64,000 nucleotides of DNA from Ulota crispa (taxonomy: Eukaryota; Streptophyta; Bryopsida; Orthotrichales; Orthotrichaceae), in the NCBI GenBank assembly GCA_963920765.1, contig OY987249.1, forward strand, positions 10,416,817 through 10,480,816. The letters are read 5' to 3'. Position 1 is the first letter of the stretch, and the number at the start of each line of letters is the position of its first letter. Shown in pieces: positions 878-64,000 of the stretch. The translations under genes and the position numbers were made by a program. Under the pieces are notes generated by a model that saw nothing but the letters and a program-made list of their open reading frames with translations, was not told the origin of the DNA and did not search any database.

Positions 878-2155
878 TTTGTTTAAAACATTAATGGCAT
901 TAAAAAGATCAAATAAAATAGTATCATTGTTGTATTATTTGTATTAGTTTACAAGTATACAAGTTGAATACACAAGCTTATGTGAATGATCACTAAAAAC
1001 AAAAAGACAACCAAACCATGACAAAAAATTTATAGGTTCCAATATTTTATTCAAAGACTAGTATTGTAGGATTTTGTTGAACTGGAATCAAAATTTAAAA
1101 ATACTTGACTCTTTTTTAAAATACCAATCACTTTGAAATCATGTTGCAATTAAAAAAAACTCATAAGGTGTTGTATTGATTGATTATCCTATGCACTCAG
1201 TTTTGTGAAACTATGACGTGGGTGATTAATATATTACTTGTTATATATAAACATTTCCATCTAAAATCACATACAAACTAAAAAAACTATGTCAATCCAT
1301 GTCAATCCTCTTTTCTAGAGGTGTGTTTTAGACAATGGCAAGTGCTAGCAAAAATCTCAAAGGAAGGTTGTGCTAAATGTTAGTCTTAAAGCAAATGCAA
1401 TCTAAAATAAACTCGTATCTCTGAATTATTTTTACAAAAAACCTATATAAATTTACATTATTGCATTACGTTGGATGTAATGAAAACAATTGTAAAGAAG
1501 AAAGAGTTGTTAAATAAACATATCATACAGATTTAAAGAGCAAAATTTTAGAAGAAAAATTCCTCAGTAGTGCATTGAAAAGCTTTATTACACTCTTTGA
1601 GGTCTTGAGGGTTTGGTTAGTTATTTTGGTTTAACAATCAGGTTGGTTATTTAGGTCCAACTATTTAGTTACTTGTTGAGGTTTTCACACCTAAAGTACC
1701 TCAAATATACATTTTTGAACCACCATGTATTATTATTCATTAAATCTTGTACCATGTTGATTCTTTTTTGTGCGTAAACTTCATGATAATTTTTTGAAAG
1801 CACGGTTAGGTTATTGAATTTTGGTTTGTTGTGTAAAACTCAAACTACACTGCATTTAAATCAACTAAAATCGAAGAAAATTCATTGCAGTAAAATGGCT
1901 CAAAACAAAATGATGTAATTATATCACTTTTTCATTGCGTTTACAGGCAATGTGATATTATTTGCAGGTTTTCTCTAAGCATTCTCGTATTTTTTAACCC
2001 TTTTAAGATACTGATTTAATCGAAATAGCAGTCTTATTAGTTCTTGGATATTGACTTACAAATTAACAAGAAGCTAAAGTTTTGACTTTCATATTAATTC
2101 CTGAGTTCACACACTCATAGTATTCCAGAAAATAAATAAACACAAACTTTATTAA
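878..2155. other. AT-rich intergenic, nothing recognised
   Basis: There is no open frame of note, no splice-consistent coding exon and no clear inverted or tandem repeat. A T-rich run at about 2169-2215 lies just inside the repeat that follows. Confidence 0.5.
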
Positions 2156-3064
2156 CCCCTAAAGTCATAATTTTTTTTTTTTTTGTTTTTTTGTTTTTTT
2201 TTGTTTTTTTGTTTTGTGGCAGCATAGCAATTTTGGGTAGCTCACTACCAATGGGTTTTTCATATTTTTAAAATTTTCATGCATGATGTGTCCAAGAAGT
2301 AGCTATAAGATCCAAAAAATTTCATAACTTTTAACTCATGATTCAAAAGTTATTGCGTGATATGTTATTTTCTTTGCTTGTTGGGTAGATAAAAAAATTC
2401 TTTAAAGATTACATTTTAAACAAAAAAAATTGAAATTGGTTCTTTAGATCTATATATAGTTATATACATGGGAATCTTTGAATCATTCAATTTTGGTCAA
2501 CGAGATGAAGGTCATGAGGAAATTTTGTTTGCTAGGAGTCATGGAATCTCTACTCTAAAATAAACTTTGAAATCTTTTATTTTACTCAATTTTCAATATT
2601 TTGAAAAAAAAAAAAATCATAGGATTTAGATTTTTTATTGCAACATTATAGCCCTTGGGATTGGAATTTATCATTTCCATAATTAAGTTTTTAACAATTT
2701 TGTGGTTTGAATCATTTTCTATTTCTTTTTACTAACTTTTTTTTTCCCATGTGTTGTACAATTCCAAATGATTTGAAAATTTTCAAGTGTGTACCCCAAG
2801 TTGCTTTGAAGAACAAACCCAAAAAACTACAACCATTTTGAAGTTATCTTCATACAAATATGACCTTGTGAAGTGCAACTGCTTGGAGTTTTGTAGGAAC
2901 AAAAAATAATTTTTTTGACAATTCAAATTCAAATATCTAACAATCGGTGGAAATTTCTGAATTTTTTTTCACATTTTTTGATTCTAGTGTATTACAAGCC
3001 ATCTTACTAGAATTGGCAATTTTGGTATGGTTTTGGTGAAAAACTTAGCTTAGGACTTCAAGGG
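2156..3064. mobile_element. TTAA-flanked element, related to 58679-59431
   Basis: The left end is TTAA (2152-2155) followed by CCCCTAAAGTC. The right end is decayed: CTTCAAGGG followed by TCAA. The section about 2215-2540, with AGCATAGCAATTTTGGGTAG near its start, is clearly homologous to one arm of the large palindrome at 58679-59431, so this looks like a single-arm relative. No coding capacity is visible. Confidence 0.5.
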
Positions 3065-3150
3065 TCAATGTAATAAAGTTCTTAAATCATAAAAGAGTAA
3101 GCGTTTACAAATGATTTATTCAACCAATAATCATTTAAATATATCACATC

Positions 3151-3166
3151 CTTAACCCATAAACGT
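3151..3166. repeat. Solo TTAA-CCC terminus
   Basis: TTAACCCATAAACGTC fits the terminal consensus of the TTAA-flanked elements in this window, but I could not find a matching inverted end. It may be a decayed or truncated element. Confidence 0.3.
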
Positions 3167-3515
3167 CAAGGTAGACGTTTTTTGTCCTCTAGCCAAGATA
3201 AAACATTCTTTAGTATAGAAATAAAAAGTTTTTCACTTGGTATTTTTCCAAAGTGATCATAAACAAATGGTCCATCATGGAAGGTAAAAAAAAACCTCAC
3301 CTCACCAAACAAACTCATATATTTATGTAACCCAAATTGTGAGAAGATTCAAAAACACAATATTACGTTCCATGCTGCCTTTCTTACAATTTTCATGAGG
3401 GCACCATACATTGTTGACTTCTGCAACTTTTAGGAACATTATTACAAGATGGGCACCTGTCACATCACATTGTAGCAATATCAAGTTAGGTCACAACTAT
3501 GAGCTCAACGTTTAA

Positions 3516-4162
3516 CCCCTAAAGGACCTTGGAATTTCTTGAGCTTCTAGGAATTTGCTCTAATTTGAACAAAAAGCCAACATATTGATAAACTATATCA
3601 ATTCTCTTTGAATTATAATCATATAGAATCAAACTAGACATGTTAGAGATCATATTAGAAAAGAAAACACAACAATATCTCTTATGGATTGAAATATTCT
3701 AATGTTTGATCACAAGGGTGTTAAAACTCTGAAATTTGATTTGAAGTCTTCTTATCTTCTTTTCACATGTCAATTTAAAAACTTGGTCACCAAAAAAATA
3801 TGAGGTTAAAGGGCCTAACATGCATAACCCCAATCAATTTATGACTTCTCAAAATTTACTCTGCAATATTTTTAAACAAATTTTTAATGTGATTTTTTCT
3901 CAAAGATTTAGTGTATTTGAGGCTCATTCCCAAAAGCCCTCAACACTACATAAAGTCAAGATTGCAATGAACATCCATGCGGCGTGCGCAAAATCTTGAA
4001 TAGAAAAATTATAATTAATTATTTGCAAAATCAAATTGTTGGAGCTGAAACTGAACTTCATAAAGAACTTTTCAAAAATATAATATACTAAAAATAATCA
4101 GGTTTAATTTAATCTCAAAAATTGATCAAGGACAGTTTCTGTCCCCCAATGACGCTTTGGGG
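3516..4162. mobile_element. TTAA-flanked MITE, main 640-bp family
   Basis: A TTAA at 3512-3515 is followed by CCCCTAAAGGACC, and the right end ACGCTTTGGGG is followed by TTAA at 4163-4166. The interior matches the elements at 27540, 30848, 61026 and 63463 throughout (for example GACATGTTAGAGATCATAT and AATGTTTGATCAC). This copy is the most diverged. It has no coding frame, so it is non-autonomous. Confidence 0.7.
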
Positions 4163-4600
4163 TTAACACAATCTATGAACATAAAAGCCTTAACATTTTC
4201 AGAGCACAAAAGACTAATAACAATAATTACAAGTGGCACTTTCAAAAGTCATGATTTATAGATGTGATGCCCAAAAAACACATGCTAAAATGATAGACTT
4301 TCTTGCTATTCCTCTAATATGCTGGTCACTTGCTAGGATAGACTAGTGACATGCTTACACTTCATTTCTCATTGTCTACTTTTCTTCTAATAAGCCTTTT
4401 GAACCTCTAATCCTCTCAAAGCTTGCAAGCTTGCACAGAGGAATAAATACATATACTATACAGATCTATTGTCCACCTGACCCATCTGACTCTTCCAAGC
4501 AAGAAGGAAAAGTAAATGCAGGAGACATTGGCAATACCTTAAACGTATTCTGCGCAAACTTCGTCCCAAAGATCAATAAATAGTGAAACTCTACAACAAC

Positions 4601-4632
4601 TTAACCCTAAACCTTAAACCCTAAACCTTAAA
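4601..4632. repeat. Short interstitial telomere-like repeat
   Basis: Alternating AACCCTAAACC and TTAAACCCTAAACC units lie just past the stop codon of the GT31 gene. They resemble plant telomere repeat (CCCTAAA) with a degenerate unit mixed in. Confidence 0.7.
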
Positions 4633-4679
4633 AAGGATGAGCGTCTATACAAGTACCTATCCTCTTCCCATTCCATAAG

Positions 4680-7600
4680 CTAAGGACTCTTGGAACACAT
4701 GGGATCTCTGTGCAGCTCAGGCATCCGCTTTATTGGATTACAAAGCCCTGTCATTCATCCAGTGCATTTTCATCACGTCAACAAAATGCACCTACAGTGT
4801 TAGCATGTAACATGCAGTGCGCGTTAGAGATTGGAACTTTGATAAAAGATACCTAAAAATTCAATAATCAAGTACTTTCAAATATATCCCAAGTAGTTCA
4901 AAAAGTTAGGGGAGTTTACAAATAAGGGCACAAACTCACAAAATAATTACAAGCAAGGACCTGTCTTTGCTCTTATTCAATAGCAAGAGAATAAACTACA
5001 GATGGACAAGCAAGTGCATTGCAGAAAGTGTGACAAGAAGGAACACAGTGCCCGCATTTGAGAGGCACTATTGGTGAGGTTCTTGGAAGTACTAAAGTTT
5101 AGAGTTAGGGCAACAATAGTTTAGTTTAGGCAACAATGGGTTAGGGCTTAAGCAACAATGCTTTATAGTTTAGGCAACTATGGTTTAGAGTTTAAACAGT
5201 GGTTTAGGGTTTAGGCAAAAATGGTTTAGGCAATAATGGTTTAGGGTTTAGGCAACAATGGCAGTGAGTGGCGAGTGATGATCAAAAGGCAACAGATGTA
5301 TTGTGGCTGAGCTTCCCTCTTCGTAATTATTTTGTCATTTTATGACAAAAATTTATAAATTCCTCAAAAAGTCACTGCAAGCACATGCAAATGATACTGA
5401 AAACAGAGAAAAAGAATTGCAGCTGAAACTTACCAGAGCAAGCTGGAAGATCCCAGACAGCTATTGCCGTGGGTCCACACGATGTGGCACAGATAGCTCG
5501 GTTGTCTTCATGCACCACATCCATGGCTAACATCCAAGCGCCTATTGTGACATCTTCGTTGATGAACATGCGATACCTGCAAAAATGAGCCAGTTTCTAT
5601 ATAAATTGTAGATTATATGGTTTGATTCTACGTGAGTTTACAAGTAAGATTTACAAATAAGAGCACAAAATCACAAAACAATTACAAATACCGGGACACG
5701 GATAATGTTAACAAGAGGGCAATAACTGTATGTTGGGTGTGTCATCATTTATTACTTTTGAGCCCTGCCCCTACTTGTAAATTATATTATGCTTTTGCGG
5801 ACTTCTTTGTAAGTTTTCTATTAACTCTGACGTAAATCTCAAGTAAATCTCGAGTTGAATGACCAAGATTCATTACAATTTGTTCGTGAAGAAGGTTCCA
5901 TCACCAACAATACAACAAATGCGAATTCAGGTAAAATTCTACTATACAACCAAAACAAATAACAAAAAACAAAAAACATAAACTGATTGACAATCACCAT
6001 ACCTCTGGTTTCTGGTAGCTGCAAGATTTGCCACGACTTCTTTAGATAAAGCGTAAATCGGTCCATAGGCATGCAAGAAGTAGTCAGAGCCGATCATGTA
6101 CGCCTTGGGTTCATACCTGCATTACAAAACAGAGAGAATGAAAAGTTTGAAAACCTGAAACCCACCGATACAAACACAAATGCAATCGAATTCCAAAGAC
6201 AACTAAACCTGATGTTGTTGTAACCTGCAGATGGTTTGTAACTTTTCAAGACTCATGGAGCGGCGTTCACAGGATAAGAAAAATGGTATGTTTATGAGAA
6301 ATTCAGTAAAGCTTGGTACTAACCACTTATATTTGGAGTCTGTAATGACTGGGCCTTTTTTCATGCAGCCCAGATAAACCCTGGGACTGTCTCTTGGCTT
6401 GGACAGCAATGCAGCTAATCGATCTGTACGCAAGAAAAACGAGCAAATCAGAAGGTAAAATCAACAATTTAGAAGCTAAAACCGGCATTTCATAGAGGTC
6501 GGATCAATCATAGCTGAGGTTGTTAAATGAAAATCAACCATGCTAAGACAGCAGCAAAGAGGACACAATTCCGTCTAACTCAGAACTGGAAGAAAATTAA
6601 GTACAAGGGACGAGCCCTGAAAGTAGAGAACACAGAATTTGAAAAAATTAGAAGAAAAAACCCACATACCTGGGCGTAAATAGATATCGTCGTCCATCTT
6701 CATATAGAAGTCTGCATCATACAACAAATACGCTGTGCGAAAAAAAGCTAGTCTGTATAAGAGACAACAACATAACAAGAGAGAAGTCAGAAATCAGTAT
6801 CAGAAAACCCACCCTGTATCAAAAAGCTCACCCTTGTATCAAAAGACAAAGCACTTCGTAATAATAATAGGTGTATTTCTGCGTAGAGTATGTAGTATAC
6901 TTTAATACAATTTAATATCCTGCCAAGTTTTTTACCTTGAAACCTCATATCAGGTCACAACAATAAAGGACGCCTTAGAGCTTCTTAAGCGATGCAATGT
7001 CCTCAACTTTGCTGCTTGCACTTGAAAAAGAGTCTAACTGAATCAATGAAGCAGAAACAGGATGTGCTATATCACAACTCAAAGCAAATATTAAGACAAC
7101 TACTGATACATTTAAAAGGTAAGGTACTCCTTTGCACTGAGGTCCCAAAGCCACCCATTTACAACTCAAATGCCATCCAAATAAGTGAGTCATAACAAGT
7201 GAGACAATTGTAAGTTTTTTCACACTCAAAAAAAAATCCAAAAATTCCAAAAATTCCAAAAATTGTTCCATGAGATACAATACTCATAGTTTAAAGGTAT
7301 TTGGAGCTCACGATTAGGACCCTGCTACTTGAAATTCTTATAGCTTATTATACGTGACTGTTCAAGTGGGTTACAATCGTCTGAAAACGGGCACAAGGCC
7401 ACCTAAAAAACCCGAAAATTTAGAAAGAATCCGTCCTGGGAATGGAAACCAATCAAAATAGCTGGAAGGCACAGGAATGAGTGAATTAATCGCATTGATT
7501 TAATTAAGTATATTTTAGCCCACATAAACAGTTGGACTCCAAAGAGGATTTAGGGTTTAAGGTTTAGGGTTTAAAGCACTACTTACGTTTTAAGTGTAAG

Positions 7601-12756: not shown

Positions 12757-13400
12757 ATTGTATAGAGGGGTACACTTGCCTTATGAATTTTTTGCAGGAA
12801 ATTTGCCAAAAAATTCAAGAACTTCTTGAGGTCATAACTTCCTTAAAAGTTGTCTGTTTTTTAAACCAAAAATTGCTTTGGAATCCTACTGAAGGCTACT
12901 ACATGATTTGATATAAAAAATCTGAAATTTTACAAATGATAAAAAAAAGTTTGGCTACTTCCTATATATTGTTCCCCATCCCTCTTGCCAAAATCACTGC
13001 TTGAATTTGATTGGGCTATGCCACCCCCAACAGCCAAAGAATAAGCAAGAAATGATACACATCATTCAAAGAGTATAGGATGAGGTATCCATGGAGCAAT
13101 TACAAACCCTTATTGCAAGTATGCCCAATTGAATTGAAGCGGTGATTTTGGCAAGAGGTGGAAGTACTAGATGGTAGATACTATATAGGGAGTAGCCAAA
13201 CTTTTTTTATCATTTGTAAAATTTCAGATTTTTTTCATCAAATCATGTAGTACACTTTTAGTAGGATTCCATGCAATTTTTGGTTTTAAAATTGAACAAT
13301 TTTTGAGTAAGTTGTAGGCTCCAAAAGTTCCAAAACTTTTAATTGCATTTTCCTGCAAAAAAATTTGCAAGGCAAGTGTATCCCATTGTACACCTCCATT
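12757..13400. repeat. Large foldback, ~245-bp arms
   Basis: The left arm (about 12757-13010) and right arm (about 13140-13400) are diverged inverted copies. TACACTTGCC pairs with GGCAAGTGTA, TCTGAAATTTTACAAATGAT pairs with ATCATTTGTAAAATTTCAGA, and CTCTTGCCAAAATCACTGC pairs with GGTGATTTTGGCAAGAG. The spacer is about 110 bp. A TTAA-type terminus (TTTATGGG then TTAA, 13736-13747) lies 340 bp to the right and may be the true edge of a larger element. Confidence 0.7.
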
Positions 13401-13996
13401 TCATTTTCAAATTCTCCCACAATTTCCTAAATTGGTTTTCTACATGGAGAAATTAAACCTCAATTTTGCAAAGAGCAATTTTTTTGCTGTAAGAGTGATC
13501 AAAGGCTTCTAAAATATTTGGGCAACATGGAAAAAAACTATTTTTGTCACTTTAGATGCCAATGTCTCACTGATCTACATTTAGAATGGGCTAATTTTTT
13601 TCCCACAAATACCTCCAATAACCTAGGACAAGATCCTATGGTTGGGTTTCCAAAAAACTTTTTTTCTTATTTTTCTACTCATTCTTCCAACAGTGGCAAT
13701 TTTCAGTGACTTTCACACAAAAATGGACTTCGGCCTTTATGGGTTAAGTTAAGAGAAAACTTTTGTGCTAGTCGGGGAATCATCAAATTCAAAAACAATG
13801 AGCAATTTTTAGCAAAATTGCTTATTGTTTCTAGATTTTCAGATTCGCAAGTGAGCATGGAAGTTTGTTCTAATCCCTCAAAGCCACTTTACATTAGGAG
13901 TCAAGGTAAAAAAATATCGAAAGACAATATCAAAAGACATAGTAAAAAACACATCAAGGACACAGTAGAGAACACATTAAAAAAACATATCATAGC

Positions 13997-20653: not shown

Positions 20654-23600
20654 TTACAATTTGGCACGCATAAATTTAGGGCTAGTCTCAGAGGTAGCCT
20701 CAGGGGTAGTCTCAGAGGTAGTCTCAGGGGTAGTCTCAGATGTAGTGTCAGATTTGGTCTCAGGAGTAGTCTCAGGGGCAGTTTTGAGTTTGGGACCCTC
20801 TGAGACTTGTGACATGTCTTCACCGCTCCCTTCTGAATTTGCCAACACGTTCTTCTCCATGTCTTCAACGACCTGCACCCCAAGTTTGGTAAAGAAGCAG
20901 GTTACAACTTATAACTTCAATGCGAGCCTATTTACAAACCCCAAGGACATCCAAAGACATCTATACTAGTAAGTGGGAGCCTAACCCTCGTTAACTCGGT
21001 GCCCTTTTTTAGAGCTTTCTAAAACTTTTTGGTGGAAGTTGAAGCAATAAAAGATGCTTCAAATGTAAAACACCAAACACCCTCCAATCGTGTCCTTTTC
21101 CAAAGTCTTCTATAACTTTTTGGTGGAAGTTGAAACAATAAAAGATGCCCCCAAATACAAAGCACCAAATGCTCTCCAACCATGTTCTAGAAAACCAACA
21201 AAACGCCAATCACCCCTAGCAAAGTAATAAAAAATAGCATTCTGGTGAAGGTAACTATAATTTTTGGTTTCAAATAAGGACTAAAATGGCATTGTATCAA
21301 GGTTAGATTTTGAACTAAGTTATGAGATACTGATTTCCTATAAAGTACATCAAGGTAAGATTCTAGACTAATTAATTAGTGAGACGTTGATTTTTTGTAA
21401 AGTTGAATGTTGCATTACCCATACATGTCCACCTCATGCAAAGTGTGTGCCTCTATACTAGATGTATGTAAATTTACAACTTTGTAATATGTCCTACACT
21501 GCAAGTGTAAAAGAAATGTAGGGTTGATGCTTTCTTTCTAAATATTTATTTGATTTTTGTAAAGAAAAACAAAAAAAATCTCCAAACAAATAATGACATA
21601 AACAAAATTCTACAAAGAAAGTAAGCATGAACTTTTTGAATTTTTTGTGATATTTTCAGCCAGCCCTACCCTCTAGATATAAGAATCTTCTCAAGCCCCT
21701 AGAATCTCAAAAGTTATGTAGTTCACAAGTTCATGACCATGGCAAAGATAAGTTTGAGGCTAAAGCCATGAAACCCACAAAAAAAATTGGAGTCCATAGA
21801 AACCATGAAATACAAAAATAAATCAAGCTACTCAACATTAAAATAAAATAAAAACGACTACTACATGAAAAACAATAGTTTACCGTCTAGAACAATGGGG
21901 TCCGTTCTGTTGCACATATCACATTCTATTTGGATTTTATTGTTCCACTAACGGTTGGCACTTGCTGCAATATGCATACATTAGAATTTTATTAGAATTT
22001 TTGTATGTCAAATAGAATGTAAAGTAAAATTTTAATAAGTCTTCAAATTGTCTCTATGTGATAATATCACAAAGATTGGAGATGTGATATTAAAAAGGTC
22101 AAATGTAATATTACAAAAGCCACTATGGTTGTAGTAGTATGTCTACCCAAACTTTTTGTTTTTTAAAATTTCAATTTTCATGGAAAAATCCAATTCCTTG
22201 TGAAGGTCGCATTGTAAGTTCAGAAGTTCATAGCCGTGCAAACCACTCACTTGGTTAACGCTGGACGACGATTTCGACGATGACGACGACGACAAGATGT
22301 CGACGAGACTCTGCTGCGTTCGCTGGACGGCGTCCTTCGTGGAGGTGAAAGCGCCCCCGATCGCCCGTTTGACGGCGTCCAGCGACTCGGAGGGCAAGTG
22401 CAGCGTTGCCAGCTTCTCCGTCACCCGCGCCCGGACGCTCCCCAACGAATCGCCCACTTCCGTCGCCACCCCCTTGCCCGTCTCCACTATACCGGGCCCG
22501 GTATCCACCGCGTCACTGGCCTGGCCTGGCTGCTCTTGCTCCTCCGTGCCTGCATCTGCACCCCCTGCATCACATTCTTCAGCAGGGCTACAAGTACAAC
22601 AAAGTCATACATAAAAGAGTAGCTCAAGCTCATTTGCGTGTTCATATGTATAAGAAGGAATTCAAGGAATAAAAACTGGTTAGATATTGGAGAAAAACTT
22701 GCACCTACACAGACAAAGAACTGAGGAGCAGACCCTTATTTAGTGCTTAACCCTTAAATGACCATAGGCCATAGTATATACGCTATTGTATAAGTGGCAT
22801 TTGCTACCAAACAATAAGTTTTAATTTGGGATCTCAAATAGCTCACTAGAACCGCATTGATCTATATTACAACTCCTTTGTTAATCTCAAATGTAGTAAA
22901 GGTGTGAAACAATTCCAAATACAAGCAAAAAAACCTCGTATGTACTGGTCGCAGCAGCACACTCAGACGTAGAAGGGTTCAACCTCTTTATGAAGCATAG
23001 CTTGTCAAGCTCTAAAAGTTAACAACCCAACTACCAATAAGAGGGTTGTGTAACAACCCAGCATAACTTGGCATGCGCTAAAAATTCAACCACTCACCAA
23101 CTAATTGAAAATTTAACATACAGGTAAAGCATGGAGGACAAAACACACAGAATGGGAGGAAAAAACTTTTATTTTATTTAATTTGGAGCAATTGCCCAAA
23201 CGACACTTCTTCTCAATTGCTATTACGAGCTCTTTCTTGAGCCGAAGGTTGAAACACAACCAGCAAGTCAACAAAAGCATCCCCTCCGTTGACCAAATTC
23301 ATGTTTCCATTATAAAATATAAACTCCACAAGTAGTTATGTTTTGTTGGACCTCCACTACATTCTTTAAGCTTTAGTCCTTGTAAGCACGCTTCTTTCAC
23401 TTTGATATTAGAATGAGCGTCACAATCCATGACTAGCTAGCTTTACACACTTGAATTTAATAGCGTTCTTTTCCATTCTTCTAATTTTGTTCAACTCCTT
23501 CTGGTTCACATTTGCAAATCGATAATAAGAGAATATCAAGCTTTAGTTAATACAAGTTCCAAGTTTATAAGAGTTTCTATCTATTCCATAAATGGGGTTG

Positions 23601-25135
23601 GGTAAATTAGTATGATGAAATAGGGATAGCACTTATATTAGGAAGTTTCACACCGCCGCATTAGTAAGTGTGATTTATCGAACAATGTTACACAGAAAAA
23701 ACTCACTTCTGAGGTACCTCAATTGTTGGATCACATTGATTTACACTAAAAGGAATGCCACACATGGGCTTTCGCTATAAGGATTACTGCCCATGTCACC
23801 AACTCAAAAGGAAGGTTAACCATTAAATGACCGTAGAGCATAGTATATACGCTGCCATATAATTGGCATTTGTTACCAATAAGAAGTTTTAATTTGGAGA
23901 AGTTTTAATTTGGGATCTCAAGTAGCTCACTAGAACCGCTTTGATCTATTCTCCAACATCTTTGTTGATCCCCAAGTGTAATAAAGGTGTGAATCAATTC
24001 CAAATACAAGAGAAACACCTCATATTCTATTGGTCGCAACAGCATGCTCAGACGTTTAGGGGTTAACTCTAATCTAAAAGACCAGCGTAAATGAAGCCTA
24101 TGTTGGGAATGGTTCTACTATCAACTATCTAAACCTCATGGACCTAAATGGCAAATTGACGAATTCCATCCTTGATGCCTCTCTTAGGAAGTTAATTACA
24201 CAGTAGATATAAGCTCAAAATTGACCTTGCAAGCTCGGTCAAAAAAGTTAGTTCTATCGCCATGCTCAATCAAGGGTTTAAAAAGAAGGATACCATAAAA
24301 CCAAAGCAATTCCACATTATGGAAATACAGCCTCTTGTCAAATAAACTTATACCATTATCATGGTATAGAAATAGGGTTATGACTAAAGGTAGGAGGCTC
24401 TAATTCGGCTTTTGCTCTAAAATGGATCACCTTCTAAAATGTACTATTGTTGTACATGTTGTTTATCACAGGCGACCATGTACATTTGAGGAGGTGATTC
24501 ATTCTAGAACCCTACGCCATTTCAACTTCAAAATTTCATAACTAATTCCATAAAGCTCCAAAAAATATGAAACAACTTGGGTCAGATGTCAATTTCTCTT
24601 GTCTTTCAAAAACAATTTACTAATAAATATTTCAAGAAGTTTCACCTCCCCAAAATTGGGGAAAACTCAGTTTCAGCCCTTAGATTATCCATTTATGAAC
24701 CTCCTACCTTAGTGAGGTTTCAAAAGGCAAAGGCAAAGAGCAAAAGGCAAAGGCAAAGAGCAAAAGGCAAAGGCAGAGAGCAAAAGAAAGTAGAGTACGT
24801 GAAGAAGGCTGGTGCTCGTCGGAGGTCACGATACCGACTCCAGCTCCGGGGGAATACAATTCATGTGCCACGTCACCCTCCTTCGGCACAAGCTCCGTAT
24901 CCACAGGGGCGTAGTAATCCCCCTGCTGCTTCTCCCGCCCCGCCTCCTCGTCCTCGTCGCCACCGCCACCGCCATCGCCATCGCCGCCGATGCCATCGTT
25001 TGTGCCGCTGCTTCCGAGGACGCTCACGACCTTCTCCGCGACGCTCCTGCCACTACTCTCTTGCTCGTCCGGCACGAGGTCTGCTGCCTCCTTCTGTCCA
25101 GGGATGAACGGCGCCTGCGCTTTAGGCTGCGCCAT
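20654..25135 (-). CDS. Hydrophilic, LEA-like protein of unknown function
   Basis: Three exons are proposed. Exon 1 runs 25135 down to about 24835: it starts MAQPKAQAPFIPGQ, then a Gly/Asp/Glu-rich stretch, YYAPVDTELVPKEGDVAHEL. Exon 2 runs about 22576 or 22564 down to 22251, with donor CAA|GTGAGT: a mild amphipathic helix region (DSLGSVRARVTEKLATLHL, AVKRAIGGAFTSTKDAVQR) ending in a serine run. Exon 3 runs 20872 down to 20654: it starts VVEDMEKNV and ends in Thr/Pro/Glu repeats (SETTPETT) and stop TAA. Phases fit, but the exon 1-2 junction is not fixed: two donors and two acceptors are compatible. Length would be about 280 residues. There is no membrane segment or known domain. Composition recalls late-embryogenesis-abundant proteins, but that is a guess. 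Introns are long and carry two TTAA-flanked elements. Confidence 0.5.
21011..21190. repeat. Tandem duplication, ~90 bp x2
   Basis: ACTTTTTGGTGGAAGTTGAA, CAATAAAAGATGC and CACCAAA occur twice, about 90 bp apart, in the last intron of the LEA-like gene (1.4 kb from its exon 2). Confidence 0.8.
22751..22977. mobile_element. TTAA-flanked MITE, 230-bp family, copy 1
   Basis: TTAA then CCCTTAAATGACCATAGGCC opens the element; CAGACGTAGAAGGG then TTCAA (decayed TTAA) closes it. The interior matches 23820-24062 (ATAGTATATACGCT, GGCATTTG). It lies between exons 1 and 2 of the LEA-like gene. Confidence 0.65.
23820..24062. mobile_element. TTAA-flanked MITE, 230-bp family, copy 2
   Basis: TTAA (23816-23819) then CCATTAAATGACCG opens the element; CAGACGTTTAGGGG then TTAA (24063-24066) closes it. 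It has the same orientation as copy 1, about 1.07 kb away, in the same intron. Confidence 0.72.
24719..24786. repeat. 23-bp tandem repeat x3
   Basis: CAAAAGGCAAAGGCAAAGAG is repeated three times with small changes, close to the exon 1 donor of the LEA-like gene. Confidence 0.85.
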
Positions 25136-25542
25136 CGCCAACTCGAAACAATTGCCCTCAAATTCACCAAATCGTCCAACCTCGCCAAACCCTCAAATCC
25201 ACGAACTACATGAAGTCTACGATTTGCGAAGTTTGAACTGATAATGTGGAATTGTGTGCGAGCTCCCGTGAGACGCAAATTGTTTCGGTTGATTGGGTGA
25301 TGCTGGTGGTGGAAAACGAGACTCGTAATTTGGTGGAATCGAGGGAAGGGGAATCGTTGGGAGGAGGGGAGAGGGGGAGCTGGAGCAGTGGGGATTGTGC
25401 CTTGGATGGGGGTTTGAACGGTGCGAGGTGGAGGAGCTGTAGTGGCCGGGAGCCAGGTGGACTATTCGGTGGTGCGGGGGGTTGGGTGAGTGCCAAGTGG
25501 CAGGCGAGGAGGGTGGAACATATGTGATGGACGGCCCCTTAC

Positions 25543-25608
25543 CCCCTAAATGCCCACGGTATCAAATTTTAGTAAACACCCAAATTGGGTGCCGTGGGCA
25601 TTTAGGGG
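25543..25608. repeat. Minimal hairpin with CCCCTAAATGCC ends
   Basis: CCCCTAAATGCCCACGG at the left is matched in reverse by CCGTGGGCATTTAGGGG at the right, 66 bp in all. The flanks are TTAC and TCAG. The end sequence fits the TTAA-element consensus, so this may be the smallest member, with a decayed target site. It lies about 410 bp upstream of the LEA-like gene start. Confidence 0.6.
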
Positions 25609-25806
25609 TCAGGGGTCATTTTTCTTGGCTAAATTTGCAGCTTATCTCAATTTTCGATTGGCTATCATACTACTTGAAAAATTGGGTAAAAAAAAATGAA
25701 GTTGTCAAATCCCTCCCCAAGCAAAGGAAGTCTGCTCTAAAATCGCTCACTTGTTTTGAACCACTTGAGTAGCCTGTAGTGAAATGGCGCAGTGGTTGGT
25801 TCTTAA

Positions 25807-26762
25807 CCCCTAAAGGTCCAAAGAGCTTACTCTGGGCTTTATGAGAACTTAGGTAGGCTCTCTTGACTTCAAAATCTGAAAAAAATTCATGAAATTTTTA
25901 GGATAGATGCTACTCATCATAATCTACATGTGAAGCTTTATTTCATGTTGTTCCGATAAGTAATGCAAAAGTTAGAAGGTTTTTTCAATTTCAATGTCAA
26001 ACCAAGTAGCAAAAAATATGTTCTAAATTTTTTAATTTTTTTAATTGAATTGTATAGAGTGATACCTACTCAAAAAAGATTGAATCACTCAATTCCAAAT
26101 AATGAAGTAAGAGTTAAAAGGAGTTTTATTTTGCGGGCAATGAAGGTAGGAAGAGGGTAGAAAAAACATATCAAGTTATCTTTTACTCTCAATTTTGAAA
26201 AATTTCAAATGAAAATGAAAGTTAAAGTTACTAATTGTCTATTAGAGCATTCTCACCATTGGGATTAACAATTTTCAAATTCTTCCAAAACTTATTAGCA
26301 TATTAGTTATATCTTTCATTCATCAATACCTTTCACTTTACAATTTTTGTAAAAATGAATCCAAAATTTTTTTTGGTTTAATTTTTTTTGGTTTAATTTT
26401 TTTTGGTTTAATTTTTTTTTATATGCTTTCAACCCCTTTTCCAACATATTGCAAAAATTGCACAAGAAATACAACATGTGTGTTTTTTTTTCTAAAAAGT
26501 TTGAAAATCAAAACTTCACCTTTTGGAAGGACTAGAAAAACCTACATTTTTGAAGTTTAGGCACATTGATCTTGCAATTGGTGGGGATACTCATTCTAAA
26601 ATTTTGGGACAATGTACTTGTGCAAGTCAACCAAAGGACCCTATGGTTGGATTTGTTAAAAAATAAGTTTCAATGAAGATTTTGACCTTAGTTTGGGGCT
26701 CAGTTTGGGGACTAGTATTTTGAAGCAGTTTTGGGCCTCTAAACACAAAAGAATTTTAGGGG
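25807..26762. mobile_element. TTAA-flanked element, 956 bp, short matching ends
   Basis: TTAA (25803-25806) then CCCCTAAAGGTCC opens; AATTTTAGGGG then TTAA (26763-26766) closes. Only the first eight bases of the termini agree, so the pairing is less sure than for the others. Inside, a GGTTTAATTTTTTTT unit repeats three times at about 26365-26412. Confidence 0.5.
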
Positions 26763-26766
26763 TTAA

Positions 26767-27535: not shown

Positions 27536-27539
27536 TTAA

Positions 27540-28180
27540 CCCCTCACCGCCCAAGGGGCCCAAATCGGGCCCCTTTGAATTTTATTCAGGGATTTTCAAC
27601 ATTTTTTCAATATTTTTTAGTGATTATTATTATTTTTAAATTCTCGTTGAAGTCTAGTTTTAGCATCAAGAGTCTGATTTTGAAAATGAATTAAAGTGGT
27701 TTGTCTATTCAAGATTTTGTGCAAGGGTGTCCATTGCAAATCTTTGTTTTCTAGTGTTGAAGGATCTTGGAAATGAGCCTCAAGTACACTATTACTTGGA
27801 GAAAAAATCACAAATACAATTCAATTAAAAAAATTGTAGAACAGATTTTGAGAAGTCGTAAATTGATTGGGGTTATGTATGTTATACTTTACGCACTCAT
27901 GTTTTTTTGGTACCCTCAATTTTAGGTTTGAGATGCAAAATGAAGATTAAAAGACTTCAAATCACTTTTGCATTTTTAACACCCTCATGATCAAACATTA
28001 TAATCTTTCAATCCATAAATGATATTGTTGTGATTTCTTTTCCTATGTGATTTATAACATGTCTACATTGTACTATGGTTGCCCTTAAGAGCAAGTTGAT
28101 AAGATTGATCAAAATGCCAACATTTTGTTCACTTTCAAGCAAATTTTGAGATACTCAAAAATACCATGGGCAGTGAGGGG
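27540..28180. mobile_element. TTAA-flanked MITE, main 640-bp family
   Basis: TTAA (27536-27539) then CCCCTCACCGCCCAAGG opens; CCATGGGCAGTGAGGGG then TTAA (28181-28184) closes. The interior is in inverse orientation to the copies at 30848 and 61026. There is no transposase frame. Confidence 0.88.
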
Positions 28181-28184
28181 TTAA

Positions 28185-29431: not shown

Positions 29432-29439
29432 TATATAAA

Positions 29440-30022: not shown

Positions 30023-30847
30023 TATATAAATTGCTTGGATTAAACTAGTAAATGGATGGAGCTAACTCATTAAGATATAAATGCCCTTAAAAAGGTGTGT
30101 ACAGTATACAGGGGCATGTTTTACATTTTTGAGCTTGAACACAATGCTAAAAATTGAATAACTTTTAGCTTGAGTTGAGCCATAAGGAATGAAATAATGT
30201 TGCCTTATTGGTCATTCTACAAAAGAAGGCTACTGATAATCCTTTTTTCCACATCAAAGTCTAAATTTTCCAAACAAGAGATGGATCTGAGATGAATGGA
30301 ATTTTCATAAAAAGGCTTTGGAAGAGGGATTTGTATTCTAAAATTTGAATGCAATTGGAACTATTTAAGTAATTTGTATTAAATCTAAAATCTCATTTTT
30401 ATTAGTAAAAATAAAGAACAAGGGGAATTAGGCTTTACCATGAATTTGATTATGTAGGGAATGGAGGTGCTGTTTAATACCTAGGATATCCCAATAATCA
30501 AGAATGTGAAATAATAAATACCAAATATGTTCCAAAAATTATTATGCATAAGACAATCTCATCTTTTCATTTTTTATTTGTTAAAAGGTTGTGTATAACT
30601 TTTTTAATTGATTAAAGTGAAGATTTGGAAACTTCTCTTAACAAATATTCTACAATTTAAGAAGGTTGCACTTCGAAAACCACTTTAAAAAAAAATCAAA
30701 ATAGCCTTTAGCACATGACACTAATCAATCAAGAATTGTTTTGATCTTAAATAAAAGCTATTAGCTCAAGATTTATACCTTGATATTCCAACAAAAAGAA
30801 GACCGTTTTAATAAATCATGATATTTGATGAATTATAACTTTTTTAA

Positions 30848-31819
30848 TCCCTCAACGGCGTCAACGCCCCTGGAATTTTGGAGTATCTTTTGAATTTGCT
30901 TGAAAGTGAACAAAATGCTGGCACTTTGATCAATCTTATCAATTTTCTTTGAAACATAACCATACAAATTCAAGTTAGACATGTTATAGATCGCATAGGA
31001 AAAGAAATCACAACTATATCACTTATGAATTGAAAGAATGTAATGTTTGATCATGAGGGAGTTTAAAATGTGAAAGTGATTTGAAGTCTTTCAATCCTCT
31101 TTTTGCATCTCAAACCTCAAATTGAGGGTAAGGTATGTACACCCATAAGCGTCAAACTAACGGTTTTGAACATGATGAGTATCAATAAACAGCTAGCAAA
31201 TTACAGGATCCTATTAGGAACAGAAAAATAATGAGTTTGCACTTTTGAATGTATTATTTGGATACTGTGAGAATAAGTTGTGAATTTTTAAAGAGCAAAC
31301 TACCATTGCACCCATAACCACTTTGAAGATTTCATGTTCACATGTTGTACATCCTTGTCATTACATCTATCCACTTCCACAAATTTTCCAAGATTTTCAA
31401 AGGTGACAGTTATGGGGACACTGATGCTTATGGGTGTACATACCTTACAAAAAAAGTATGAGTATGTGAAGTATAACATGGATAACCTCAATCAATTTAC
31501 GGCTTCTCAAAATTTGTTCTATAATTTTTTTAAATGAATTTTTAACGTGATTTTTTCTCCAAGTTCTAATGTACTTGAAGCTCATTTCCATGAGCGTTCA
31601 ATACTAGAAAATGAAGATTTGCAATGGACACCCTTGCACATAATCTTGAATAGACAAACCATGTTAATTCATTTTCAAGATCAAACTCTTGACACTAAAA
31701 CTAGACTTCAATTACAATTTAAATATAACAATGATCATTAAAAAAGTCTTGAAGAAACTTTGGACACCCCTGAATAAAATTTAGAGGGGTGCAGTTTGAG
31801 CTCCTTGGGCATTGAGGGG
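30848..31819. mobile_element. TTAA-flanked MITE, main family, with nested insertion
   Basis: TTAA (30844-30847) then TCCCTCAACGGCG opens; GGGCATTGAGGGG then TTAA (31820-31823) closes. Removing the nested 315-bp element and its TA leaves about 655 bp, the usual size of the family. Confidence 0.85.
31131..31445. mobile_element. Nested TA-flanked MITE
   Basis: The left end AGGTATGTACACCCATAAGC is matched exactly in reverse at the right end. Flanking TA (31129-31130 and 31446-31447) and comparison with uninterrupted family copies, which read GAGGGTACCAAAAAAA here, show the insertion point. A TA duplication suggests the Tc1/mariner group. It has no coding frame. Confidence 0.85.
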
Positions 31820-31823
31820 TTAA

Positions 31824-42306: not shown

Positions 42307-42509
42307 CACTAAAAGAAAAATAAGGATAAATGATTGCCACAAATTGCAACAATTAGGTCACCAGAACTGTCTTGCAACTGCACAAACAACTGCACAACTA
42401 GATTGTAGTTGTGAAAATGTTGTGCAATTGTTGTGTAATTGCAAGACAGTTCTGGTGACCTAGTTGTTGCAATTTGTGGCAGTCGTTTATCCTTGTTTTT
42501 CTTCTAGTG
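42307..42509. mobile_element. CACTA-type MITE, 203 bp
   Basis: The ends CACTAAAAGAAAAATAAGG and, reversed, CTTGTTTTTCTTCTAGTG extend to arms of about 70 bp (including GGTCACCAGAACTGTCTTGC). The target duplication is TGA (42304-42306 and 42510-42512). The arms are nearly identical, so insertion was recent. It is a different family from 39874-40003. Confidence 0.95.
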
Positions 42510-42901
42510 TGATTGGCACTTAATAGTGGATCCTAGTAACAAACATTGAAGGAAGGGCATTGGCAATTATAGACATGCCAAGGATATTGCAAACACAAGA
42601 CATTGGCAAATAGTCATCATAAATTAATAATATGATTTAGTGTGTCTTCCTATTTGCGATCACCTTTGTTTGTGCCCTTCTGTTGGCAAACAATTTTGCA
42701 ATATCTTGTGCTTATTTGTATTTTTTCTTGAAAAGAATTTTGGAAGGATATTTTTCACTTGAAGGAAGACACGCATAAAGTGTTTCGTGTCCAAATACTC
42801 ATGTTTAAAAGCTTGATAGTACAAGTTATGAAATGAGCAACAATATTGTGTGGTTTGAAGAATCTTCATGTATACCTTATGTAGTGGATCACGCAATTTA
42901 A

Positions 42902-44276
42902 CCCCTGAGCGCCAAAGCCATTTTCACCAAAATCAAGATTTTGGGAGACCTATAACTTTGATGCATTGTATCTCAGTCAATTGGATGATCCACAAAAAAA
43001 TATTTGAAAATAGTGGAACACCTACTTAGAAAACAAAATGCGAGTTTTGTGGACAATTAACCGTGGGAGATGGGAGATTTTAACATTAGATCAAACAATA
43101 TGTGATGGCAAAATCTCATTTTTGGCAAGTAGTTGCTATTTAATGATTTTTACAAAAACTTATAAGCCCTTGATTCATCTCAAATTTTTGAGTAGCAAGA
43201 TTATATGTGAATGCACACACTTGCAAATTATTGAAAATTCAATTTACTTTTTTGTAAGTTAGGTTTTAGGGCTTCAATTTGCTATTGGGCAGAAAACAAT
43301 GACCAACACAATTGGTGAGGGTTGCCCCAAAAAGGGTTTAGAACATGCTTGAACCCTTGCTTGTGAATTTTTTGCCACCAAAAAGTCCATTCAAAGAAGC
43401 TTGCAATGAGTATTGATCAATTATAGCTTGTAAGACATTGTTTGTCACCACTCCCCGTTAGCCCTTTTTTTTTGGCACCATAGGGCCAAAAAGCACCACT
43501 TGAAAAAAGTAGGCAAAAAAACATAAGGGAAAAATAAAGAAAATAAAATAAATGTAGCCAGATAACAACTTAGGGTTTTAAGGGCACGGCTAGAAAGCTT
43601 CAACCTTGGCCATAGTCATCGCCACCTCTAGAGATCATGTGGCATCTCTTGTTTTACTTCAAGCGCCACATTGCTACAAGTTATAGGACAACCTTGCCTC
43701 CATGAATGAAATTTTACATTTTTAAATATTTTAACATGTGCAAATATGAAACCGCATTGTCCATTTTCTTACAAAAACCCTACCAAGTGCTAGATGACAC
43801 CATTCTTTTTAGCAATTTTTGCCTTTTTGCTTGGATATAATTATCTCTAGTGCTTGGAGAATTCAACAATTTTGAGCAATATAGCCACTTTAGCACAAAA
43901 AAAATTCTTGTATTGCCAGAAATTGTCACCAATTTTTAGCACACTATGCCAGATTTGTCATATCTACAATCCACTATTGCCACAACAATTCATCGACGGA
44001 TATGAAGTACTCGCCATATGGGCAACAGTTCAAAATATAATGTAGCCAATTTGGCTTTCTCCCAAAGGGTGCTCCCCATATGGTGTCTCACCCAATTAAG
44101 ACTCTTGAAGCACTTGTATAATATTTGACTTGCCTTGCTATTACTGCACTTACATGAACCACTTGAATACCTTAATAATTAGAATTTACAACAAGGTCAA
44201 AAAACCAGATCCAATACCTCAAACATGCATGTGAAATCCTGTGAGGACTATTTTGGTCCCATGGAGCGTTCAGGGG
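42902..44276. mobile_element. TTAA-flanked element, 1375 bp
   Basis: TTAA (42898-42901) then CCCCTGAGCGCC opens; GGAGCGTTCAGGGG then TTAA (44277-44280) closes. Ten of the first eleven terminal bases agree. No frame longer than about 75 codons lies inside, and none resembles a transposase. Confidence 0.7.
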
Positions 44277-44280
44277 TTAA

Positions 44281-56530: not shown

Positions 56531-56556
56531 ACTGCCAAGCATCGGAGCGGAGCATG

Positions 56557-57562: not shown

Positions 57563-57566
57563 TTAA

Positions 57567-57789
57567 CCCCTGAACGGCCTGGAAACCCTTTGCGGCGGTA
57601 TGTACGTTTGTATGTATAGACGTATTTGAGTTGTTTCGAGGGTTTTTCAATTTTTTTATGCACCTACCATCATATAATCCTTCAATATGTACGGTTGTAA
57701 CACCTGATTTCTAGCTGATTTAAATTTTTGAATGTTGGTTGCGACTGTATTTGGTACCGTATCTCCAAAGCCCAAGGGCCCTTCAAGGG
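57567..57789. mobile_element. TTAA-flanked MITE, 223 bp
   Basis: TTAA (57563-57566) then CCCCTGAACGGCCTGG opens; AAGGGCCCTTCAAGGG then TTAA (57790-57793) closes. The interior is unlike the other families. Confidence 0.82.
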
Positions 57790-57793
57790 TTAA

Positions 57794-58674: not shown

Positions 58675-58678
58675 TTAA

Positions 58679-59431
58679 CCCTTAAAGGCCCAAGTAGTGT
58701 TTTTTGGCAACATAGCAATTTTGGGTAGCTCACTACAAATGGAGTTTTCATTTTTTTCTTTGAAATTTTGATACATGATGTGTCCAAGCAATAGCTTTAA
58801 AGTCCAACAATTTTCATAACTTTTAACTACATGGCTCAGAAATTGTTGCATGATATGTTATTTTCTTTGTTTAGGGGGCAATCTGGGCAGATCAAAAAAC
58901 TTCTTTAAAAAACATATTTTTTTGAATTTTTTTTTTGAAATTGGTTCTTTAGATTTATATATATGTGAGAAGTTTTGAATCGTTCAATTTTGATTTATGA
59001 GGTGAAAGTTATGAGAAATTTTAGTTTGTGGGTAGGTATGGAGTCTCTCTAAAACTACACCTACCCACGTGCCTACCCACAAACTAAAAAATTTCATAAC
59101 TTTCACCTCATAAATCAAAATTATATAATTCAAAGCTTCTCACATATATATAAATCTAAAGAACCAATTCTTTTTTAAAAATATCAAAGAAATGTAATTT
59201 TTGAAGAAGTTTTTTGATCTGCTTGGACTATCCGCCGAACAAAGAAAACAACATATCATGCAACAACTTCGGAGCCATGTAGTCAAAAGTTATGAAAATT
59301 ATTGGACTTTAAAGCTACTTCTTGGACACATCATGTGTCAAAATTTCAAAGAAAAAAAATGAAAACTCCATCTATATTGAGCTACCCAAAATTGCTATGT
59401 TGCCAAAAAACACTACTTGGGCCTTTAGGGG
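58679..59431. mobile_element. TTAA-type giant foldback, ~370-bp arms
   Basis: TTAA (58675-58678) then CCCTTAAAGGCCCAAGTAG opens; CTACTTGGGCCTTTAGGGG then TAAA closes. Almost the whole 753 bp is one palindrome centred near 59052-59056, where TAGGTATGGAGTCTCTC meets CTACACCTACCCAC. Arms differ at some positions. The element at 2156 matches one arm. The right flank TAAA is one change from TTAA and runs straight into another CCCTAAATGGCG-like end. Confidence 0.85.
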
Positions 59432-59435
59432 TAAA

Positions 59436-60960: not shown

Positions 60961-61025
60961 TTTGAAAAATACCAACAACCTCATTTTGATCTCAAAAAAG
61001 TTAAGGAGATGATTTGACACCTTAA

Positions 61026-61669
61026 ACCCTCACCGCCCATGGTAGTTTGGAGTATCTTAGAATTTGCTTGAAAGTGAACAAAATGTTGGCATTTTGATCA
61101 ATCTTATCAAATTTCTTTGAAGCACAACCATACAAATTCAAAATAGACATGTTATACATCACATAGGAAAAGAAATCACAACAATATCATTTATGAATTG
61201 AAAAATTATAATGTTTGATCATGAGGGTGTTAAAACTGCAAAAGTGATTTGAAGCCTTTCAATCCTCTTTTTGCATCTCAAACCTAAAATTGAGGGTACC
61301 AAAAAAATATAAGTATGTAAGTATAACATGCTTAACCCCAATCAATTTACTACTTCTCAAAAATCTATTCTACAAATTTTTAAATTAAATTTTTAATGTG
61401 ATTTTTTCTTCAAGTTCTAGTGTACTTGAAGCTCATTTCCAAGAGCCTTCAACACTAGAAAGTGAAAATTTGCAATGGACACCCTTGCACAAAATCTTGA
61501 ATAGACAAATCACTTTAATTCATTTTCAAAATTAGACTTTTGATGCTAAAACTAGACTTCAATGAGAGTTTCAAATTAATAATAATCACTAAAAAAATCT
61601 TGTAGAAAGGTTGAGCATCCCTAAATAAATTTAGAGAAGCCTAATTTGGGCCCCTTGGGCGGTGAGGGG
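61026..61669. mobile_element. TTAA-flanked MITE, main 640-bp family, intact
   Basis: TTAA (61022-61025) then ACCCTCACCGCCCATGG opens; CCTTGGGCGGTGAGGGG then TTAA (61670-61673) closes. The ends match over about 16 bases. It is a well-preserved reference copy, with the same orientation as 30848. Confidence 0.9.
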
Positions 61670-61673
61670 TTAA

Positions 61674-62505
61674 ATTTTGAAAAGTGTAGATACATTGATT
61701 TTAAGATTAAATACTACTTGAGCACTGATTTTCATCTATTGAATTCATTTGCCAAAAATACTCTAAATATATTTTGAAAAATACTTCAAAATGATTTTGG
61801 AGCCTCTATACTTCTTTGTGTTGTTTTTTTTCTTTTGTATAATCATTTCCAAGGAATTTGTTTAGAGATCCTGGATGAAACTTGTTATTTGTTTATAATT
61901 CAAACTAGGTGCGGTAAACCAATTCTTTCTTCTAGTGCTTGTAATCTTGTTATTTCATAGCAAGGGGTTATTCTTATTCATTGGGTGGAGTTATAACAAT
62001 ATCCACTAATGCATAAAGATTATCTTTGGTGAACAATGTAGGAGTAGCTAAATTATATATATTTGGTAAGCTTGGAAGGGTACCAGTGCAAGTCTTAAGA
62101 AGTTAAGCAAATCCAAACATCATTGCTGTTAATTTTTGGCAAATAAATTTATAAAACCATAACAACAAAAAGGGAATTCAAAAACGATATAATTGAATGT
62201 TGCTCAGCTATTCCACACACACTACAGAATCATGTTACTTGAAACTTCTTAAGTACAATTTTACATGCATTTTCAAAATTAGACTTATGGGTATTCAACC
62301 TCTACTTATTACCTATGGGCATCTTCTTGACTTGCTAGAACCTCATAATACTGCTAAAGCCAAAAAAAAGTGGCACCTTTCAAGTTGATTTCTACATAAT
62401 TGCCTAAGGACAATAAACAATTTGTTTCTTCAAATCAATTTCATCCATATAAAATGACTATATTATGAAACACTCACTTAAGAAAATTGAATTGCTTTTA
62501 GCCTC
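61674..62505. other. AT-rich intergenic, nothing recognised
   Basis: No exon or repeat could be supported. Confidence 0.45.
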
Positions 62506-62509
62506 TTAA

Positions 62510-63247
62510 CCATTAAACGTCATTACAACCGCTTTATGGCTTCTAGATGACAAAGTCTTGCTCTAATAGTGGAATAACATTGCTTTTTATCCAAGATTTT
62601 GTTGGGATATGAACAATGCAATCTAGAGCATGTAGATAGATAGTTTCTGCATGCACAATGTGACGAACAATGTTCACAAAAGGGTCTCACTTGTCAATTG
62701 AGTACTAAAGATGCACCACCATGTAGTGTATTTTGATTTTTGAGGATCTTCTTACCAAAACTTAGTTTGAGTTATTAAAATGATGTGTTTTTAGTTTGAG
62801 CATAACTAGCAATAGAAAGTTTACAAAATCTAGTTTCTCCTTGTACTTTAAGCTTCTGAAAAAATTTAAGTTTTGAAATTTTTGTTACTATCACAAGTTG
62901 AATACCTATTACTATGAAATGGTTACTTTTTCTAATTTGATCAACATGGGAGTTTTTTTCCATCATGATGGTCTTCATTTTGACTCACATCCATGCTAAA
63001 AAATGTGGCATAGTTGAACACATTTGGAATTAATATGAATTTCTTTAGCATTTGCTTCAAAAACTTACAATATTTTCAAATTTTTACCAAAATATATGAA
63101 TATTTTTTATACACGTAGTATGCATATACCTTCTTCTATTAAAATTATAATATTGAATTTTGATGTTGATTACATTGCCAAAATAACTGCTAGAAGATGA
63201 TTGCAATTCCATAGGAAATCCATGGTTGTAGGCGTGTCCTTTAAGGG
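62510..63247. mobile_element. TTAA-flanked element, 738 bp
   Basis: TTAA (62506-62509) then CCATTAAACGTCATTACAACC opens; GTAGGCGTGTCCTTTAAGGG then TTAA (63248-63251) closes. Ends agree as CCnTTAAAnGnC. The interior is distinct and non-coding. Confidence 0.72.
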
Positions 63248-63462
63248 TTAAGGATATTGCTATATTATATATGTTTTCTTGAGTTGTATACATATAGTGC
63301 ACATGGGTAGCACATGAATCCCATTGGAATTGTAAATTTTAAGACAAGTTATAAACATACTATTGGTCAACTATGATTTTTTTGGGGAATTCTTGGCATT
63401 TGTCATAAAGTCGATTCTTTTTAGTACTAAATGGTCCTTGTATGAATAGGCAACATCCTTAA

Positions 63463-64000
63463 CCCCTCACCGTCCACAAGCGTTCCCCGGTATCTCAGAA
63501 TGTGCTCTTGGATGAACAGAATGACAACATTTTGATAAGTTGCATCATTTAAAAAAAATTGTAACCATACAAAGTCAAACTAGATATGTTAAAGATCACA
63601 TAGGAAAAGAAAACACAACAATATCACTTATGGATTGAAAGATTATAACATTTGATCAAGAGGGTGTTAAAACTGTGAAAGTAATTTGAAGTCTTTCAAT
63701 CCTCTTTTCACATCTCAAATTTATAATTGAGGAGATCAACAAAAATATGAGTATTTAAAGTATAACATGCGTAACCCTAACCAATTTACGGTTTCTTAAA
63801 ATCTACTCTACAATTTTTTATATTAAATTTCTAATGTGATTTTTTCTCCAAGTTCTAGTGTACTTGAGGCTCATTTCCAAGAGCTCTCAACACTAGAAAG
63901 TGAAGATTTGCAATGGACACCCTTGCACAAAATCTTGAATAGACAAATCATAGTCATTCATTTTCAAAATCAGATTTTTGATACTAGAACAAGACTTTAA
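63463..64000. mobile_element. TTAA-flanked MITE, main family, cut by window end
   Basis: TTAA (63459-63462) then CCCCTCACCGTCCAC opens; the interior follows the copy at 61026 closely to the last base. About 100 bp and the right end should lie beyond the window. Confidence 0.85.

Follow-up and report, generated by a model that had tools for sequence, protein, structure and literature searches.

piggyBac transposons are a widely used gene-transfer tool that has been studied mostly in animals, and their usual chemistry consists of cutting at the element ends and joining to a TTAA target. For animal members, according to the available part of PMC10813416, the duplication is usually TTAA and the conserved end motifs are CCCTT, CCCTC, CCCAT and CACTA. 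The accessible parts of three plant surveys carry the name as well: PiggyBac is listed for all groups studied, land plants included, in Table 2 of PMC4438587; it is one of seven superfamilies of angiosperm miniature inverted-repeat transposable elements (MITEs) in PMC10004981; and a table for the fern Ceratopteris holds 1,230 PiggyBac copies at 0.00% (PMC6890710). Here we describe a 64,000-base stretch of DNA (C8:10416817-10480816; the window hereafter) in which a crowd of short elements share TTAA flanks and CCC-type ends, and which are very probably non-autonomous piggyBac transposons (MITEs) in a moss nuclear genome. A preliminary description of this window held that piggyBac is not generally expected in land plants, which is too strong a statement, as the superfamily is listed there in the parts of PMC4438587 and PMC10004981 just cited. 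What is in our view notable here is the abundance and the lineage diversity of piggyBac, the superfamily itself being already known, also for land plants; the case for a known superfamily in a little-studied host is well supported. Titles and abstract openings revealed no published piggyBac expansion in a moss, which, with thin coverage of subscription papers and preprints, is weak evidence of absence.

Short TTAA-bounded elements in the window and the genome

Ends were searched for with the pattern TTAACCCYTNAANGNC, allowing at most two mismatches, and two ends were taken as a convergent pair when lying 150-1500 bp apart. By this measure the window holds 35 ends and 12 convergent pairs, against means of 4.0 (maximum 10) and 0.06 (maximum 1) in 50 first-order Markov shuffles, and the window reversed without complementing yields 3 ends and no pair. 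All nine pairs of the preliminary description were recovered, and its decayed or cut members, placed at 2156, 22751, 58679 and 63463, correspond to elements at 2152, 22747, 58675 and 63459; the sites are real, but the coordinates given for them point at the CCC, four bases inside the TTAA. Our own coordinates run from TTAA to TTAA and are 1-based in the window. The 11 paired elements, nested inserts counted in, take up 7,507 of the 64,000 bases and fall by similarity into seven families, next to which stand two repeats with one recognised end each, in agreement with the earlier estimate of at least seven interior families. Five of the listed members (3512, 27536, 30844, 61022 and 63459) form a single family, A. 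The elements are:

2152..3068, + strand, decayed element, family F in part, with second end TTGACCCTTGAAG
3152..3477, + strand, family H repeat with one recognised end at 3152; copies in L023, L028, L007, L015 and L033
3512..4166, + strand, MITE family A; ends TTAACCCCTAAAGG and TTAACCCCAAAGCG; 75% to 61022-61599 and 74% to 27614-28185
13386..13747, - strand, family I repeat with one recognised end at 13747; many copies; 54 bp at 81% to an end next to the piggyBac domain at E37
22747..22981, + strand, MITE family B, right TTAA decayed to TGAA; 78% to 23816-24064
23816..24066, + strand, MITE family B; paired ends and similarity to 22747-22981
25539..25612, + strand, 74-bp palindrome of two CCCCTAAATGCCCACGG ends; 34 bp shared at 88% with the left end of E38
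25803..26766, + strand, MITE family C; L008:1500-2422 at 86.7% with identical borders
27536..28184, - strand, MITE family A; 31 bp shared at 87% with the left end of piggyBac element E40
30844..31823, + strand, MITE family A with an unrelated nested insert at 31129-31447; paired ends and family similarity
42898..44280, + strand, MITE family D, about 776 bp without the high-copy insert nested in it at about 43460-44066; outer borders placed by its ends; an L016 copy lacks the insert
57563..57793, + strand, MITE family E; matches genome-wide with TTAA borders
58675..59435, + strand, MITE family F, nearly all palindrome, right TTAA reading TTTA; copy at L012:2465-3213
61022..61673, + strand, MITE family A; 88.5% to 27530-28184; its right end shares 30 bp at 87% with the left end of E40
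62506..63251, + strand, MITE family G; L011:4910-4177 at 82%, aligned from the left border to at most 7 bp short of the right
63459..64000, + strand, MITE family A, truncated by the window end; 90% to L009:6432-6974

The same ends abound throughout the assembly (274.8 Mb in 157 contigs), where TTAACCCCTAAAGG occurs 15,411 times (reversed control 1), TTAACCCYTNAANGNCC 24,790 times (reversed control 2) and CCCYTNAANGNCCAAG 11,760 times (control 8), the last being preceded by TTAA at 9,804 sites (83%). Family A was queried with window element 27536-28184 and 100 bp of flank on each side, which gave 39 other copies at 88-92% identity (best 40 of 4,951 candidates); in 34 of these the alignment stops no more than 3 bp from either TTAA border, in five it runs past one border by 6-28 bp, and an additional row matches mainly flank. 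For family E, 41 other rows at 80-87% identity (best 40 of 2,473 candidates) comprise 29 that end within 3 bp of both borders and 12 with a border off by 4-39 bp. Among the matches listed, copies of both families lie on the large contigs C1-C10, with one on C72. At C10:12942229-12943339, three rows (two of family E, one of family A) stand in tandem, neighbours overlapping by four bases, as is expected when one element lands in another's flanking TTAA. The sampled copies appear to be old: full-length matches reach at most 92% identity to the query in family A, 87% in E, 88% in the L021 type and 90% in E40 (the latter two are treated below), and on this ground the piggyBac bloom is probably already over.

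The size span of about 220 to 1375 bp reported earlier is reduced to about 230-965 bp, since the two longest members, 30844-31823 and 42898-44280, each hold a nested insert and were rejected as single long elements. The insert at 31129-31447 (319 bp, AAGGTATGTAC inverted ends, TA flanks, copies in L016, L017, L020 and L023) looks from these features like a Tc1/mariner-type MITE. That of family D, at about 43460-44066 and about 607 bp long, had 2,179 first-look candidates, with listed copies at 86-92%, and took up the scored list of the genome search for this family, so that other family D copies give no border information; because the L016 copy begins 17 bp inside the left end, the outer borders of family D are placed by the ends themselves. 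Four solo ends had also been described. Those at 3152 and 13747 hold as ends of repeat families, family H copies in L023 and L007 beginning at TTAA, but the one near 44699 (44698 in our count) was dropped because its two mismatches put it at chance level, and the one at 59436 because it belongs to the right end of 58675-59435, of which it is the far side.

In the palindromic family F element at 58675-59435, the arms 58751-58932 and 59177-59358 are 87% complementary and the arms 58939-59036 and 59072-59169 are 92% complementary, and the element could yield a hairpin RNA. The 74-bp palindrome at 25539-25612 has outer words that are close to TTAA, inexactly, and contains little beyond its two E38-type ends. 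Other long inverted repeats, with arms 85-95% complementary, lie at 18291-18613, 39883-39993, 40221-40339, 41696-41814 and 42306-42510; no TTAACCC-type end is listed at these. At gathering scores, Rfam has no match in the window.

Transposases, coding elements and empty sites

A genome search with the PF13843 (DDE_Tnp_1_7) profile returned at least 120 matches, all above cut-off (best 254 bits, E 1.3e-73), a lower bound that comes from the best 116 of 528 first-look candidates and in which a few genes are represented by two matches each; in 14 control genomes the profile had 0 matches. Stops lie within 110 of the 120 matches, a further sign of age, the other ten being stop-free. All six open reading frames (ORFs) from five loci that were subjected to hmmscan match PF13843 and no other Pfam family, and a PDB sequence search with one ORF found transposase 6x67 (4e-20) and piggyBat 9c0f (6e-17). 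Nine domain translations fall into three groups that are 31-40% identical to each other: E31, E32 and E29 (62-67% identical within the group), E37, E38 and E39 (38-48%), and E40, L030 and L033 (43-44%). The choice posed earlier, between one transposase serving many substrates and an unrecognised group, thereby gives way to at least three piggyBac groups. The first catalytic motif, (V/I)DE, is present in all nine domains, the second, DN, in eight (NN in E39), and the third, (V/I)D..DQ, likewise in eight (VNVGDQ in E29); the first two align to 6x67, and we take the aspartates of the three motifs to be the catalytic residues. A Cys/His-rich region lies C-terminal of the domain at all four loci inspected by eye (E37-E40). 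Two piggyBac-domain genes, L030:2313-3479 (- strand) and L033:2149-3837 (+ strand, in two pieces), are stop-free in their matched stretches, and no paired element ends were recognised around them within 5.5-6 kb of locus; they may be domesticated piggyBac genes, or else belong to elements whose borders lie further out.

Longer members encoding a DDD transposase, which the preliminary description had proposed to look for, were found as PF13843 elements bounded by such ends. Both borders could be placed for E31, E32, E38 and E40, which measure 5.0-7.1 kb and all have this end type, CCC starting seven of their eight ends and TCC the right end of E31. The DNA of E31 (7.1 kb, including about 2.1 kb of inserted sequence with a match in L014) and E32 (5.7 kb) is similar from the left TTAACCCATTAAGG, at TTAA exactly, to 5 bp before the right border. 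E40 is 5,027 bp long with TTAA borders at query positions 201 and 5227; full-length copies on C10 (90%) and C8 (88%), aligning over query 201-5228 and 201-5227, bring it to three full-length copies in all, with similarity bounded by TTAA, and a further diverged and interrupted copy lies on C11. E38, of 5.7 kb, runs from TTAACCCCTAAATGCC to its mirror, and a second full-length E38 with both ends was not found among the best 40 of 6,746 candidates.

In two MITE families, the L021 type and the L015/E38 type, both ends of a coding element are preserved while its middle is gone. The MITE at L021:1169-1577 retains both ends of E31/E32 and, queried with its flanks, gave 40 other rows (best 40 of 1,539 candidates), 24 of which reach both borders to within 3 bp. 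L015:2641-3545 is a member of the E38-type family, in which 29 of the 37 right-end rows have a left-end partner on their own strand, giving elements of 905-1064 bp. Three of the eight unpaired right-end rows, at C9:1933609, C4:5933793 and C4:14105658, lie within about 2 kb of E38 coding-region matches and, by this position, look like coding relatives of E38.

For empty sites, the joined flanks of candidate elements were searched against the fetched loci. When ends were paired with no check for homology, 834 candidate pairs resulted, mostly false by construction, together with 68 junction-spanning matches. Seven of these matches were used; the rest were set aside because they had gaps, a border in doubt, or a candidate that was mispaired or repeated. 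The seven are clean empty paralogues of four insertions, each reading one TTAA:

L026:5314-6227, three empty sites
L021:1169-1577, one empty site
L009:3441-4369, one empty site
L012:2465-3213, two empty sites; a window family F copy with left flank 2465-2468 reading TGAA

These sites agree with the 4-bp TTAA duplication of piggyBac: a single TTAA stands at the site before insertion, and a copy flanks the element on either side afterwards.

Assignment and proposed mobilisation of the window families

The assignment to piggyBac is supported by the 120 or more PF13843 matches, by coding elements with such ends and by the empty sites, and from their ends we infer that every window family belongs to this superfamily. 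In the mechanism that we propose, transposases of coding elements from several piggyBac groups would bind the ends of short derivatives in trans, cut at the CCC/GGG boundary and then join the element to a TTAA target. Internally unrelated sequences could be amplified by the same transposases, because little beyond the terminal 12-16 bp is common to them. For the window families such trans-mobilisation is the best reading, because they share the 12-16 bp ends, TTAA and, in A and I, 30-54 bp with coding elements; which transposase moved them can be suggested from these shared stretches, at most 30-54 bp long and mostly end motif. A wider picture can be drawn, which we rate somewhat below even: mosses may hold an old, diversified piggyBac radiation of their own, with at least three divergent groups in one genome, that acts in trans on any pair of 12-16 bp CCC ends beside TTAA and by which unrelated DNA, even near-perfect palindromes, would have been recruited into thousands of MITEs.

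Several observations weigh against the piggyBac assignment. The likeness between window families and coding elements is confined to the ends (A to E40, 30-31 bp; I to E37, 54 bp; the 74-bp palindrome to E38, 34 bp), the terminal motif is all that places families B to H, and a scan of seven window ORFs brought up no transposase. Two of the eight ends of E31, E32, E38 and E40 deviate, the right end of E31 reading TTAATCC and that of E32 TTGACCC, and borders are not fixed for E37, E39, L030 and L033, nor is the left border of E29. With the looser 12-base core CCCYTNAANGNC, allowing one mismatch, TTAA precedes only 55 of 150 sites (17 loci, 224 kb, window included), a low share because that core also arises often by chance. 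The empty sites were sampled from about 0.13% of the genome and none comes from a window element itself; the left TTAA copy of the family F member at L012:2465-3213 reads TGAA; and L017:6817-7098 (75%), a paralogue of the L009 site, is without the insertion yet has no TTAA there. By themselves the empty sites fit TTAA, TA, TTA or TAA duplication equally, and because the target itself reads TTAA, the transposase must decide between these lengths.

Kolobok and Sola3 also target TTAA, and either of these, or an undescribed TTAA-specific superfamily, might have moved the window families, piggyBac sharing TTAA and CCC by coincidence. Most window families do share with the coding elements only the terminal motif, and the transposase profile search covered PF13843 and not Kolobok or Sola3 profiles; we nevertheless regard this as quite unlikely, as the same end type is found in three groups of coding piggyBac elements, the same end consensus in MITE families tied to coding elements over at least 60 bp, and CCCTT, CCCTC and CCCAT among the animal piggyBac end motifs in the available part of PMC10813416. 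MITEs of the Tc1/mariner type (TA) or the PIF/Harbinger type (TTA/TAA) with a strong preference for TTAA would leave the empty sites that were found, these being compatible with TA, TTA or TAA duplication. A complete TTAA at 83% of cores (9,804 of 11,760) would be needless for a TA or 3-bp target, however, and the transposases found between such ends are piggyBac, Harbinger transposases not having been searched for, which makes this explanation very improbable. Chance, simple repeats or assembly artefact would account for two of the four solo ends, which are at chance level or part of another end, but against 12 pairs versus 0.06 in the shuffles, 24,790 occurrences versus 2 for the reversed pattern, and listed copies with sharp borders on the large contigs C1-C10 (one on C72), such an origin of the elements has next to no probability.

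The probable moss host and comparison with known systems

The assembly has 36 light-harvesting protein matches, with eight equal-scoring LHCII gene matches clustered at C4:21.39-21.77 Mb. Three of four genes retrieved from it were compared with the PDB. The Lhca3-like and Lhca2-like proteins match chains of 8htu, 7xqp, 7ksq and 6l35 best, by clear margins (437 versus 404 and 357 versus 301 bits); for the LHCII protein a fused 620-residue chain, 9vfj, comes top, followed by 8htu and 7xqp (466 versus 433 bits). The chains 8htu, 7xqp, 7ksq and 6l35 are, we presume, from Physcomitrium patens, and because the light-harvesting proteins match them best, a moss host is most likely.

Several piggyBac groups together with more than 24,000 matching ends constitute a source of natural, plant-adapted transposases and end sequences, and a setting in which to ask how a single transposase family comes to supply many MITE families. 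Vertical descent versus horizontal transfer of piggyBac in plants becomes directly testable. A caution follows for repeat libraries, in which moss TTAA MITEs may sit unclassified.

In comparison with the piggyBac superfamily as represented by 6x67 and piggyBat 9c0f, the present elements share the DDE_Tnp_1_7 domain, the aspartates in three motifs, the Cys-rich tail, TTAA and CCC-type termini. They are longer than the well-defined piggyBac of 2,472 bp in the available part of PMC10813416 (E40 measures 5.0 kb and E32 5.7 kb), and they differ from known piggyBac systems in their host, most likely a moss, in the at least three groups, 31-40% identical, within one genome and in the very high MITE numbers. 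The insect MITEs of iMITEdb, for which the accessible part of PMC5199201 mentions piggyBac and TTAA, are likewise short, high-copy and bear terminal inverted repeats, whereas the present elements reside in a plant. With the plant PiggyBac surveys (PMC4438587, PMC10004981 and PMC6890710, in the parts available) they share the superfamily name in land plants; where those parts give a name or a copy count, we here add transposases, element borders and empty sites.

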